64,000 nt of DNA from Solidesulfovibrio aerotolerans (GTDB lineage Bacteria; Desulfobacterota; Desulfovibrionia; Desulfovibrionales; Desulfovibrionaceae). Where the stretch lies: NCBI RefSeq assembly GCF_009856865.1, contig NZ_WVUD01000003.1, positions 62,001 through 126,000 of the forward strand, given 5' to 3'. The stretch's first letter is position 1. Each line of letters opens with the position of its first letter. A program made the translations under genes and the position numbers. Positions 36,076-40,009 of this stretch are shown here, piece by piece. The notes beneath the pieces were generated by a model. That model ran no database searches. It saw only the letters and a program-made list of their open reading frames with translations, and had not been told where the DNA came from.

Positions 36076-36103
36076 GCAGGCGCACCGCCTCGCGCTGACG
36101 GTG

Positions 36104-36148
36104 CAGGCCGGCGGCCCTGTCCATAGGAAGGACAGGGCCGCCGGCCTG
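36104..36148. terminator. Bidirectional hairpin between pgi and the MoxR/VWA operon
   Basis: The 19-base arms at 36104-36122 and 36130-36148 (CAGGCCGGCGGCCCTGTCC and its complement) are perfect around a 7-base loop. The element sits between two convergent genes. A strong T-run is lacking, so termination efficiency is uncertain. Confidence 0.65.
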
Positions 36149-36176
36149 GTCATTTTGCGGCGGGGTTGCCGTCCTC

Positions 36177-36635
36177 TTAGCGGGCAAGCCGCAAGAGCCG
36201 CTCGGCCATAAGCCCGGGGGCGATATCCCGCTTGAGGCTGGCCGACAGAGCCAGTTCCCCGCGTACGTCCATGGGCTGGCTGTCATGGGCGGCGGCCAGG
36301 GCCGCCTCGAAGACCCGGCGCAATTCCCGAAACGACGCCTCCACCTCGGGATAGGCATTGTCCTCGCGCCAGGGCAGGCGCACGGATTGCCGCAGTGTGC
36401 CGGCAGCGTGGTTGGGCGTGGCCAGCTGATAGACCCTGGCCGGCGCTTTGCCGGCCCGTTCGTGTTCGTTGGGGTAGCAATGGGACTGCCAGGACGCGTC
36501 CGGCTCGGGGATGGTGGAGTCGATGCGCACATAGGGCAGGGCCAGGGCCTTTTCATGGCCTTCGAGCAGCACGTCGTAGAACAGTTGCGGGCGCAGGTTG
36601 CCGCGTTTTTTTTCAATATGCCAGGTAATGCGCAT
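36177..36635 (-). CDS. Unknown 152-residue protein, third gene of the MoxR/VWA operon
   Basis: The sequence (MRITWHIEKKRGNLRPQLFY start) has no signal peptide, membrane segment or recognised motif. It reads as a folded alpha/beta protein with a helical C-terminal half (FRELRRVFEAALAAAHDSQP, LKRDIAPGLMAERLLRLAR). It begins 12 bases after the VWA protein stop on the same strand and is probably cotranscribed. Its constant company, a MoxR ATPase and a VWA/metallopeptidase protein, suggests that it is the client or adaptor of that machine (inference). Confidence 0.7.
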   Translation of the reverse strand: MRITWHIEKKRGNLRPQLFYDVLLEGHEKALALPYVRIDSTIPEPDASWQSHCYPNEHERAGKAPARVYQLATPNHAAGTLRQSVRLPWREDNAYPEVEASFRELRRVFEAALAAAHDSQPMDVRGELALSASLKRDIAPGLMAERLLRLAR

Positions 36636-36647
36636 GGATGTTTCCTT

Positions 36648-37973
36648 TTAGGCGGAAAGATGCAGGACGTCGCCAAAGGGCGGCCGTCCCCGGGCTGCGG
36701 CCGGCACGACCCAGAGCACCGGATAGGGCGGCTCGGCCGGAAATCGGTCGCATTCAAGATCGGTACAATACAGCAGGCAGGCCGGGTGCAGGCCTTCGCT
36801 GGCCACTTTGGCGAAGACCGGGCGATAGTCCGTGCCGCCACCACCGGCCGGGACAAATTCCAAGGGCGGGTCGGCCCGGGTCCAGACCTGCGCCTGGCTA
36901 ACGGCCATATCGCAGCAGTAGACCAGCAGACGGGCGTCGCAGACCTCAAGGACGCCCGACAGTTCGGCACAAAAGGCGGCCAGAAGTGGCGCGTCCACCG
37001 AGCCTGAGGTGTCGATGGCCAGCACCACGTCGCCGAGTGACATGGAACGCGGTGAGGGCAGATACAGGCCCATGTGGATATGACGGCGGTTGGGCGGCGA
37101 CCAGGAATAGTCGCTGACCGCCCGGTCCAGAATAAACCGGCGCAGCAGGGTGGACCAATCGAGCTTTGGCCGGGCCAGTCCGGCCAGCACCCGTTCAAGC
37201 CCGGCCGGCATGTTGCCCATGGCGGCAGCGGCCCGGCGGGATTGGCTGACGTCCTGGCGCAGTTTTTCGGTCAGTTCGCGGCGCTTAGGCTCCTGGCGCG
37301 CTCCGTCCAGATCGGGATGGTCGCGCACTTCGCCAACACTGTGGCTGGATTTGTCTCCGATCCGGCCGTCGCCGTCTTTGTCGCCGCTAGCCGATTGGCG
37401 TTGCCTTGTGGCCCCGGACAAATCGGCCCCGGCCGGGGCGGCCTTGGGATCGGTGGGGGCACCGGCAAAGGGCGTGTCGCCGTCGCCGCCGCCGGGTGCT
37501 GTTTCGGCCGGTGCGGCCGAGGTCTTGGCCTTTTTCTCCGATCCGCCGCCACCGCGTTCGTCGTTGTTGCCGGTTAAGGCGGCATAGATGGCCTCGGCCG
37601 GTTTGCCGGCCTGGGCAGCTTCGAAAGGATGGCCTTTGGGCAGGGGGAAGCCCGCTTCCACCAGCAGGGCGGCAATGGCCAGATCGCAGGCCTTGTTCCA
37701 CAGGGCCGGGTCGCGATCTTTGCGGCGCAGATGATGCTCGCAGGCCAGATGGAGGATCTCATGGGCCACCATGACCGTTATATCCTCTTCGCTGCGGCTG
37801 GCCAGGGCCAGCGGATTGTAGCCAAGGTGGACGCCGTCGGTCCACATGTCCCGACAGCCGGCGTCGTCGATGGGGATGAGCCGCAGGGCCATGGCCCCGA
37901 AAAAGGGATGGGCCAGCACCAGTTCCATCCTGGCCCGCACGAGCTTTCGGACCATGGCGTCAGGGGCGCTCAC
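36648..37973 (-). CDS. DUF2201-type VWA/putative metallopeptidase protein
   Basis: A 441-residue protein. The N-terminal putative metallopeptidase domain has HEILHLACEHHLRR (His71, Glu72, His75). A low-complexity acidic/Gly/Ala linker spans about residues 135-225. The C-terminal VWA-like domain has the MIDAS motif DTSGS (321-325). The start is GTG 37973, overlapping the MoxR stop (GTGA); ATG 37955 is an alternative. Codons of the N-terminal extension up to 38357 lie antisense in style to the ATPase and are rejected. VWA proteins next to MoxR ATPases act together as metal-insertion or assembly chaperones. Confidence 0.85.
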   Translation of the reverse strand: MSAPDAMVRKLVRARMELVLAHPFFGAMALRLIPIDDAGCRDMWTDGVHLGYNPLALASRSEEDITVMVAHEILHLACEHHLRRKDRDPALWNKACDLAIAALLVEAGFPLPKGHPFEAAQAGKPAEAIYAALTGNNDERGGGGSEKKAKTSAAPAETAPGGGDGDTPFAGAPTDPKAAPAGADLSGATRQRQSASGDKDGDGRIGDKSSHSVGEVRDHPDLDGARQEPKRRELTEKLRQDVSQSRRAAAAMGNMPAGLERVLAGLARPKLDWSTLLRRFILDRAVSDYSWSPPNRRHIHMGLYLPSPRSMSLGDVVLAIDTSGSVDAPLLAAFCAELSGVLEVCDARLLVYCCDMAVSQAQVWTRADPPLEFVPAGGGGTDYRPVFAKVASEGLHPACLLYCTDLECDRFPAEPPYPVLWVVPAAARGRPPFGDVLHLSA

Positions 37974-38953
37974 ACGAACACCGCAGCATTGTCCCTGGCC
38001 CAGGCGGCAAACGACTCGGTCTGGGCGGCCCGGCTGTCGTGGCGCACGGCGTCGCGCATGAGCAGCACCCCGAATTCCACCGGCAGCCGGGCGGCGTAGC
38101 GGGTCAACGCCGGCATGGTCTCGGGGGAGGCCATGCGCCCCAGCGCCTCGCAGATGGCATAGGCCGCCCCGGGTTCGACCGGGGCCGGCGCGGCGTCGGG
38201 ATCGGCCAACACGGCATCGGTGTCGGGAAGCTCCCGCCACAGCTTTAAATAACCGGAAAATTCCAGGGCCGCACCGTCGCCGACGGCCCCGCGCAACAGT
38301 TCCAGTTCCACGTCCGGGTCGGGCGAGCCGGCCAGCATGGTGGAGACGAACTCCCATGACCGGGGCGTGGGAAACGCCCGCGAGGCTACGGCAGGATCGA
38401 AATCATGGAGCAGTGACGGCCGAAAGCGGAGAAAGGCGATGACTTCCGGGCGCATTGCGGCGCAAGTGGCCCAGGCCACCCAGTCTTCGAGATGGGCCTC
38501 GATTTCCAGATGCACAAACCGGTTGGCCAGGGCCGAGGGCATGCGGTGGGTGACGGCCCGGTCCTGTTCGCGGTTGCCGGCGGCAAGGACGGTCCAGCCG
38601 TCGGGCAGTCGGTATTCGCCCAAGGCCCGGTCGAGAATGAGCTGGTAGCAGGCAGCCTGGACCAGGGGCGGGGCGGCGTTTAATTCGTCGAGAAAGAGCA
38701 CCCCCTGGCCCTGGACAGGCAGAAAAGCCGGAGCGCGCCAGTGGGTGCGCCCATCGGCATCGATTTGCGGCAGACCACGCAGATCCACGGGATCGAGAAG
38801 CACGGCCCGGATGTCGATGAGGTCAAGGCCAAGGCTGGCGGCCGTCTGGGCCACGATCTGGCTTTTGCCCACGCCCGGCGGTCCCCAGAGGAACACGGGC
38901 TGGCGGATGGGGAGCAGGGTGGTCAGGGCGCGGCGGATATGGGATGGGATCAC
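37970..38953 (-). CDS. MoxR-family AAA+ ATPase
   Basis: A protein of about 327 residues. Walker A is FLWGPPGVGKS, Walker B is VLFLDELN and sensor 1 is LAAGNREQDRA. DIRAVLLDPVDLRGLP is typical of MoxR proteins that pair with VWA partners. I chose GTG 38953 because GGAGG lies nine bases upstream; ATG 38995 adds 14 residues but lacks a ribosome binding site. It opens a three-gene minus-strand operon behind the promoter at 39094-39122. Confidence 0.88.
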   Translation of the reverse strand: MIPSHIRRALTTLLPIRQPVFLWGPPGVGKSQIVAQTAASLGLDLIDIRAVLLDPVDLRGLPQIDADGRTHWRAPAFLPVQGQGVLFLDELNAAPPLVQAACYQLILDRALGEYRLPDGWTVLAAGNREQDRAVTHRMPSALANRFVHLEIEAHLEDWVAWATCAAMRPEVIAFLRFRPSLLHDFDPAVASRAFPTPRSWEFVSTMLAGSPDPDVELELLRGAVGDGAALEFSGYLKLWRELPDTDAVLADPDAAPAPVEPGAAYAICEALGRMASPETMPALTRYAARLPVEFGVLLMRDAVRHDSRAAQTESFAAWARDNAAVFV

Positions 38954-39093
38954 GTACGGGAGCCTCCGGTGGATACTATCCCGAAGCGTTGCCATGATCA
39001 GAGCAGGAACGCGTCAAACGGCTTGGCGCGGACTTCCGTACCGCCTGACGCGCCGGGCAGGGCCACCGTCGGGCAACGCCTCGGGACACCTTC

Positions 39094-39122
39094 TTGATAT
39101 TGAAATTGAGAATTGTTGTCAA
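39094..39122 (-). promoter_or_regulatory. Promoter with overlapping Fur-box-like operator, MoxR/VWA operon
   Basis: On the minus strand, TTGACA (39122-39117) and TATCAA (39099-39094) are exactly 17 bases apart. The 15-base element TGAGAATTGTTGTCA (39107-39121) lies between and over the -35. It follows the 7-1-7 Fur pattern (TGAxAAT-N-ATTxTCA) with five of seven symmetric pairs. Binding there would block the promoter. The promoter is strong by sequence; Fur control is inference. Confidence 0.55.
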
Positions 39123-39234
39123 TTATAATCGAAAAGCGCCGTGTGGGGGCAGCCGTTCTGGCGTCTCAGACGGCCGGCATCCCGGCAAACGCCCGCCCCA
39201 GGGCACAACGCGGGCGCGGCTGGGTCAGCCCAAA

Positions 39235-39307: not shown

Positions 39308-40009
39308 TCAGACTGATTGGATCACCCAGATAACACGGCCGACGATGCGCTCGGCCGAACCATCGGCCGGCAGCGTCTGATCCGCGAAATCCGTATTTTC
39401 CGAGCGCAGGATGAGCCTGCCGTTTTCACTGTCATGCACGATCTTTTTAATAACCAGTCCTTCCATGGGCATATCAAGGGCATAGAGCGCACCGGAGCGG
39501 ATGGTCCGGCGGTCCTTGTCGATGCCGACATAGGCACCGCGATGGATGACCGGCTCCATGTCGCTTTCGTCCATACGCACGACAACCAGCCCAGGACGAT
39601 GGAACTGTTCGGGCACGGTCAAGGATTCCACCGGCTGTTCCTGCCAGGGCCCTTGTGCGTCTTCCGGCAGGGCCATGGTGCACACCGGCATCTGGTAGTG
39701 CTTTGGCTTACGTCCGTACGCTTCGGCCGGTTCCTTGACCTGGAAGGCACCTGTCCGCTGTTCGCCCAGAAACTGCGGGGTATCGCCGTCGAGAATCCAG
39801 CTCGGGTTGAGGTTGTAGACCTGATAGAGCTTGATGAGCCAGCTATCGGGAATGGACTGGCGACGCTTGGCATCCGATATGCTGGATTGACGAATGTCCA
39901 GCAGTTTGGCGATTTCCACCTGCGTGCGCATGCCGGTGGCTTTCTTGATGCGATCGAATGCATCGTCGAAGCGGCTCATCGTTGCCTGGTTTGTTTCATC
40001 TGTGTTCAT
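39308..40009 (-). CDS. CI/LexA-like S24 repressor without the usual catalytic serine
   Basis: A 233-residue regulator. An N-terminal phage CI-type helix-turn-helix (FDRIKKATGMRTQVEIAKLL then DIRQSSISDAKRRQSIPD, about 17-57) is joined to a C-terminal S24 peptidase-like domain (about 105-225). The Lys of the dyad is in GLVIKKI (188/189). Where the family has G-D-S-M, this protein has E-S-D-M (148-151), so the serine position is occupied by Asp150. RecA-stimulated self-cleavage may therefore be lost. No phage genes are nearby. The ATG follows GGAGG. A CATGTCC/GGACATG inverted repeat upstream may be its operator. Confidence 0.82.
   Translation of the reverse strand: MNTDETNQATMSRFDDAFDRIKKATGMRTQVEIAKLLDIRQSSISDAKRRQSIPDSWLIKLYQVYNLNPSWILDGDTPQFLGEQRTGAFQVKEPAEAYGRKPKHYQMPVCTMALPEDAQGPWQEQPVESLTVPEQFHRPGLVVVRMDESDMEPVIHRGAYVGIDKDRRTIRSGALYALDMPMEGLVIKKIVHDSENGRLILRSENTDFADQTLPADGSAERIVGRVIWVIQSV

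Follow-up and report, generated by a model that had tools for sequence, protein, structure and literature searches.

What does a MoxR-type AAA+ ATPase do when it is encoded beside a von Willebrand factor A (VWA) protein and a small protein of undescribed family, behind a promoter that resembles a Fur target? This question is raised by three minus-strand genes in a window of 64,000 nucleotides from Solidesulfovibrio aerotolerans (contig NZ_WVUD01000003.1, positions 62,001 to 126,000), a genome of 4.6 Mb in 161 contigs. The answer that we favour, with moderate confidence and on the basis of comparative sequence analysis, is an iron-starvation machine composed of MoxR, a DUF2201-family VWA protein and an adaptor, its operon beginning with a regulatory RNA under Fur control.

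The operon and its third member

The tight coupling of the three genes described in the first-pass annotation of this DNA is borne out by the sequence: the moxR stop overlaps the start of the VWA gene (GTGA, 37973-37970), and the small gene follows after 12 bases (Table 1). The annotation had, however, missed the likely start of moxR. As the matches of relatives begin, in most loci, at the GTG at 38953 behind a GGAGG, this codon is most likely the start rather than the ATG at 38995 that opens the mechanical open reading frame (ORF; 341 aa, the version used in the profile scan), which leaves some 130 nt of undescribed leader on its 5' side.

Table 1. Features of the operon and its flanks, in window coordinates
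Feature	Position	Strand	Basis
Strong hairpin between the small gene and convergent pgi	36102..36152 (approximate limits)	.	fold z-score -6.5; 0/200 shuffles as stable
152-aa protein, undescribed family, fixed third member	36177..36635	-	no Pfam/NCBIfam match up to E 1; conserved beside MoxR-VWA
DUF2201 protein: DUF2201_N and VWA-like domain with MIDAS; GTG start overlapping moxR stop	36648..37973	-	PF13203 and PF09967 over cut-off; motifs
moxR, AAA+ ATPase, 327 aa, GTG start (probable)	37970..38953	-	AAA_5, AAA_3 and AAA over cut-off; conserved start
Shine-Dalgarno GGAGG of moxR	38963..38967	-	invariant in genus alignment
Structured leader RNA	38978..39087	-	covariation on 12 sequences; fold z-score -3.0; no Rfam match up to E 5
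Putative Fur-like operator TTGACANNNATTNTCANTTTCANTATCA, overlapping promoter -35/-10 region	39095..39122	-	13/16 of published consensus; 28-base pattern upstream of moxR in relatives

The third gene is conserved beside the other two. Among 99 genomes (that of the window included), the small protein was found in 25 and DUF2201 in 24, one of these below the cut-off; 23 genomes hold both, and the small protein is present in all 23 genomes with DUF2201 over the cut-off. It occurs without DUF2201 in two genomes, as a remnant (G012) and at a contig end (G097), while the one genome with DUF2201 alone (G037) holds the sub-cut-off match. All three genes stand in order in 21 of the 25 loci fetched, a count that includes a second copy in one genome (L050, in G003), a locus whose small gene runs into the end of its contig (L051), one in which MoxR was matched only from residue 80 (L046), and one with a wider gap between moxR and the VWA gene (L043). 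The remaining four are two loci with the VWA and small genes at a contig end (L034, L042), one with the small gene only (L054) and one remnant (L052). The neighbourhood survey that the first-pass annotation had named as able to refute its proposal thus identifies the small gene as a fixed partner of the MoxR-VWA pair. Its taxonomic range extends over the home family and two further families of the same order; of 395 genomes drawn from the phylum, 10 contained it, each a member of the home family.

Two of these loci are unusual in layout. The gap in L043 (7899-8859, genome G028) amounts to 0.96 kb, with nearly none in the other loci. In G003 the triad region occurs twice (L037 and L050) on one 504-kb contig, in opposite orientation and with identical match scores, which reflects either a real duplication or an assembly artefact (contamination estimate 8%).

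The sequences of the two larger proteins bear on what such a machine might do. Incomplete loci were set aside in the motif counts (L034, L052 and L054 for both proteins, L042 and L060 for MoxR), and the second locus copy in G003 (L050, L059, L078) was left out of the motif counts, the Fur-box count and the RNA alignment. The Walker A motif GxxGxGKS is kept in all 25 MoxR proteins with letters at that place (26 aligned) and the Walker B DE in 25 of 26; sequence matches include midasin (E 8.8e-14). The metal ion-dependent adhesion site (MIDAS) motif DxSxS-T-D is kept in all 28 VWA proteins; for the VWA protein of the window, sequence searches against solved structures gave chance-level matches only (best E 0.21). 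The first-pass annotation had also drawn attention to a metallopeptidase motif, and the HExxH, which the window protein shares with 20 of 27 aligned relatives, would fit an active DUF2201 peptidase with the small protein or some iron-related client as its substrate. In the other seven, however, among them close relatives with an intact triad, the glutamate is replaced by V or T, so that peptidase activity is not the shared function; a working metallopeptidase is unsupported in this role and we regard it as improbable.

For the 152-residue protein, the profile search that had been called for was carried out and assigned it to no family in Pfam or NCBIfam; viral homologs were sought and none confirmed, and the best match among solved structures by sequence had E 0.95. 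An AlphaFold2 model built from 11 sequences (pLDDT 82.5, pTM 0.67, one of the five models reaching only 45) consists of beta strands followed by two C-terminal helices. The best Foldseek match of this model had E 0.15, and the best VIA-align match (mouse beta-mannosidase, Z 4.1, rmsd 4.3 over 85 residues) was tied with unrelated folds, for which reason no fold is assigned.

A MoxR-vWA pair with a third protein also recalls the ternary conflict systems, which in the accessible part of their description have this composition. That the triad is such a system is nevertheless very improbable, given that the bpMoxR profile scores 14.5 bits against a cut-off of 27, that no third component known from these systems (VMAP, iSTAND, FtsH or beta-propeller) was recognised in the profile scan, in which the third protein had no Pfam match, and that the genes form one conserved triad rather than a set with variable effectors.

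Operator and leader RNA

The promoter read by the first-pass annotation, with TTGACA (39122-39117), a 17-base spacer, TATCAA (39099-39094) and a Fur-pattern core, is present in the sequence; our consensus promoter scan skipped it, as the scan demands T at the last -10 position. The 17-mer TTGACAACAATTCTCAA at 39122-39106 agrees with 13 of the 16 specified positions of the delta-proteobacterial Fur consensus WTGAAAATNATTTTCAW, as given in the accessible part of PMC545781. Taken alone this match is not significant, since one site with at most three mismatches was found in the 64 kb against 0.24 expected and 23 of 100 shuffles hold at least one; support for it comes from its position and conservation instead of its score. 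In 21 of 26 regions upstream of moxR, the best Fur-like site scores 12/16 or more and finds its equal in no more than 5 of 200 mononucleotide shuffles; all seven further upstream regions, from two genera and scored without shuffles, likewise have a site of 12/16 or more. Fur boxes of Desulfovibrio are known to overlap with a 6-bp shift; in some relatives (e.g. L036, L037, L044 and L061) another box scoring 12/16 or better stands 6 bp away, and the window has none. In the other genera examined the site lies mostly 50-150 nt before moxR (at 315 in L062, where it is at chance level), the moxR starts used for these distances being approximate in some relatives. What the promoter scan listed instead, on the opposite face of this AT-rich patch, is a plus-strand TTGAAA-N18-TATAAT (39100-39129, 11 of 12 matches) running across the Fur-like operator.

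Genes of iron metabolism were found within about 7 kb of the triad in three loci of other genera annotated with Pfam: a FUR-family gene and FeoB in L049, ExbB, ExbD and TonB in L046, and an HD-domain gene, TonB, Peripla_BP_2 (a periplasmic binding protein) and a FeoB-like gene in L047. The FeoB cluster is also present in L048. Together with the 21 of 26 upstream regions, these neighbours lend support to the suggestion of the first-pass annotation that the operon is under Fur control.

Between the Fur box and the Shine-Dalgarno sequence, the leader is conserved within the genus and contains a structured RNA of about 110 nt that the first-pass annotation had missed. Its closing helix P1 pairs 39087-39072 with 38993-38978 (about 15 pairs) and is followed by an inner rod and by the invariant 13-mer GGAAGTCCGCGCC (39037-39025), whose centre forms the apical loop in RNAalifold and single folds; minimum-energy folds of some leader sequences differ from the shared structure. 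The transcription start would lie near 39087. The window leader folds 3.0 standard deviations below shuffled sequences, with two of 200 shuffles as stable. Across 12 sequences, 89.4% of cells are paired compared with 38-45% when the structure is slid along the alignment, a control that favours the true position in that the structure was derived from nine of the 12. Furthermore, neither the 25 doubly changed cells nor the covariation score of 0.250 (slid control at most 0.095) is reached by any of 500 shuffles.

An alternative cause of conservation, a small peptide encoded in the leader, is suggested by an ATG and open frame in several leaders. It was rejected and retains hardly any credibility: the window, G001 and G007 have no ATG at the corresponding position, gaps of one base throw G011 and G001 out of frame, and the pairs covary.

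A covariance model of the RNA matched 12 of the 14 genus genomes. Nine of these had been used to build the model, so that only G002, G007 and G012 count as found independently, and E-values are approximate; under stricter filters the RNA was found in no other of 288 family genomes. The best match in other genera (9.0 bits, right strand, L039) and the best among 18 of their loci (E 0.21) are both at chance level. The two genus genomes without the RNA, G004 and G010, also lack the triad, DUF2201 included, and the 4.6-kb stretches around pgi hold neither a 13/16 Fur site nor the 13-mer. The 13-mer itself occurs 38 times in 13 of the 14 genus genomes, 25 of these outside the RNA. At the RNA 3' end in the window there is no T-run, and no terminator was called by our scan.

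Operon leader or independent RNA

These elements can be joined in the following scheme. As iron falls, Fur would leave the box covering the promoter, and transcription would begin at the inferred start; the first 110 or so nucleotides would fold into a closed rod, as the covariation suggests. Translation of moxR would follow right behind the RNA, and that of the VWA and small proteins through start-stop overlap and close spacing. MoxR, as an AAA+ ring, and the MIDAS-bearing DUF2201 protein would then form a remodelling machine similar to NorQ/NorD, for which the small protein, judging by its near-strict co-occurrence, may be a dedicated adaptor or regulatory subunit. Such a machine would work under iron shortage, where it may assemble or repair an iron enzyme, or reclaim one. 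Most likely, the RNA acts first in cis to tune the operon, and it may in addition survive as a free molecule.

Several observations weigh against this scheme. No Fur-like site beyond chance was found upstream of L048, L049 and L053, those of L062 and L065 are weak, and that of L047 is of doubtful quality. The annotated iron genes are drawn from ten neighbours in L046, L047 and L049 only, and ORF clustering of 20 loci found no neighbour conserved across genera. In L049 (12313-14453, genus g5) a partner-switch module of SiaC, DUF6272 and SpoIIE-domain genes precedes the triad in place of a Fur box, with the Fur-family gene and FeoB downstream, suggesting that the iron link may not be universal. 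With regard to the RNA, two further covariation counts, 10 doubly changed pairs and 30 further pair types, are equalled or exceeded in 15 and 54 of 500 shuffles, respectively. A hairpin covering the Shine-Dalgarno sequence is more stable than shuffles (at most 9 of 300 as stable) in four of ten leaders; in the other six 80-223 of 300 shuffles match it (102 for the window), which argues against a simple translational switch. Finally, two genus genomes without DUF2201, G007 and G012, have kept both the Fur box and the complete RNA.

These two natural deletions, together with an element in a second genus described below, make a serious rival of the view that the RNA is an autonomous, Fur-repressed small RNA of iron stress, comparable to RyhB in logic only, that would use its invariant exposed bases to act on other mRNAs, with the triad as the distal part of its transcript. 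In both genomes homology to the nearest relatives ends at the RNA 3' end, resuming after the small gene in G007 and inside it in G012. The G007 RNA keeps 31 of 34 pairs (30 in G013) and is 95.8% identical to that of G013, compared with 84.3% at four-fold sites of pgi. On the other hand, G012 keeps 29 of 34 pairs, having lost two in P1, and its RNA is 87.6-89.3% identical to those of G005 and G008, no better conserved than the flanking genes (93-96%); the 3' remnant of its small gene is still open, which indicates that the triad was lost recently. The pattern agrees with an independent function of the RNA without proving it, and a stable hairpin could alternatively mark deletion ends.

The element in the second genus, g41 (G053, G116 and G117; loci L039, L119 and L120), is of a different kind. 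Here 373-439 nt separate the Fur-like promoter from moxR, and directly behind the promoter stands a discrete RNA-like block of about 85-90 nt that ends in a T-run. Between G116 and G117 this block is 98% identical over 88 nt, as against 75.5% at four-fold sites of moxR and about 59% in the spacer to moxR. It folds 2.1-2.3 standard deviations below shuffles, its structure resting on three near-identical sequences from which no covariation support can be drawn; its Rfam matches are at chance level, and no relation to the Solidesulfovibrio RNA was detectable. The element favours an autonomous RNA, whereas the absence of a T-run in Solidesulfovibrio and of a called terminator at either RNA end counts against it (the scan, with a loop limit of 8, did not call the g41 T-run either). 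On balance we hold the autonomous small RNA to be possible but doubtful. A broader and still more tentative proposal, somewhat unlikely in our judgement, is a new class of iron-stress regulatory RNAs in the Desulfovibrionaceae. Fur-repressed and structured, they would have arisen at the head of the MoxR-VWA operon, with unrelated sequences in the two genera, and would be independent regulators able to outlive the operon, which itself would contribute a protein-remodelling machine to the same response to iron shortage.

Known systems and flanking features

The machine proposed in our favoured scheme has recognizable relatives. RavA/ViaA likewise pairs a MoxR ATPase with a VWA partner; to our knowledge it has no third gene of the small-protein family and no Fur-controlled leader RNA. 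NorQ/NorD is described in the accessible part of PMC13036017 as a MoxR-VWA chaperone of iron insertion. The triad resembles it in combining an AAA+ protein with a MIDAS-bearing VWA partner, and NorQ weakly matches the window MoxR (E 0.0059); it differs in the VWA family (DUF2201), the third protein and the Fur control, and no nitric oxide reductase genes were seen in the stretch of the window examined.

The idea of Fur regulation is not new, a point that the first-pass annotation had overlooked: Fur boxes over a MoxR-like/CoxE-like operon of D. desulfuricans G20 were predicted in 2004 and are listed in the accessible part of PMC545781. That operon (392971-70-69) is like the one in the window in its MoxR-like and CoxE-like genes, its three-gene extent and its tandem Fur boxes; the same part of the source does not mention a leader RNA. 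The Fur site published for G20, used as a query to retrieve this operon, matched none of 288 family genomes.

Few MoxR-VWA machines have known clients, and linking one that has a fixed third protein to iron starvation would supply both a condition and a partner to test. RyhB and other Fur-repressed small RNAs are structured RNAs directly behind Fur-type promoters, the arrangement seen in the window. No sequence relation of the window RNA to them was found, as judged by the lack of an Rfam match, and in Solidesulfovibrio it differs in being part of an mRNA leader with no recognised terminator. The main text of PMC11124144, on non-coding RNAs of O. alaskensis G20, mentions neither MoxR nor RyhB, and our literature search, itself thin and no proof of absence, found no Fur-controlled regulatory RNA of sulfate reducers. 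The window RNA would, if our reading is correct, be such an RNA, and the locus may illustrate how a stand-alone RNA evolves out of an mRNA leader.

At the downstream border of the operon, the strong hairpin facing pgi is probably the shared end of the small-gene and pgi transcripts. A gene for a CI-repressor-like protein with a Peptidase S24 domain (39308-40009) lies a short way upstream of the operon, in the same orientation.

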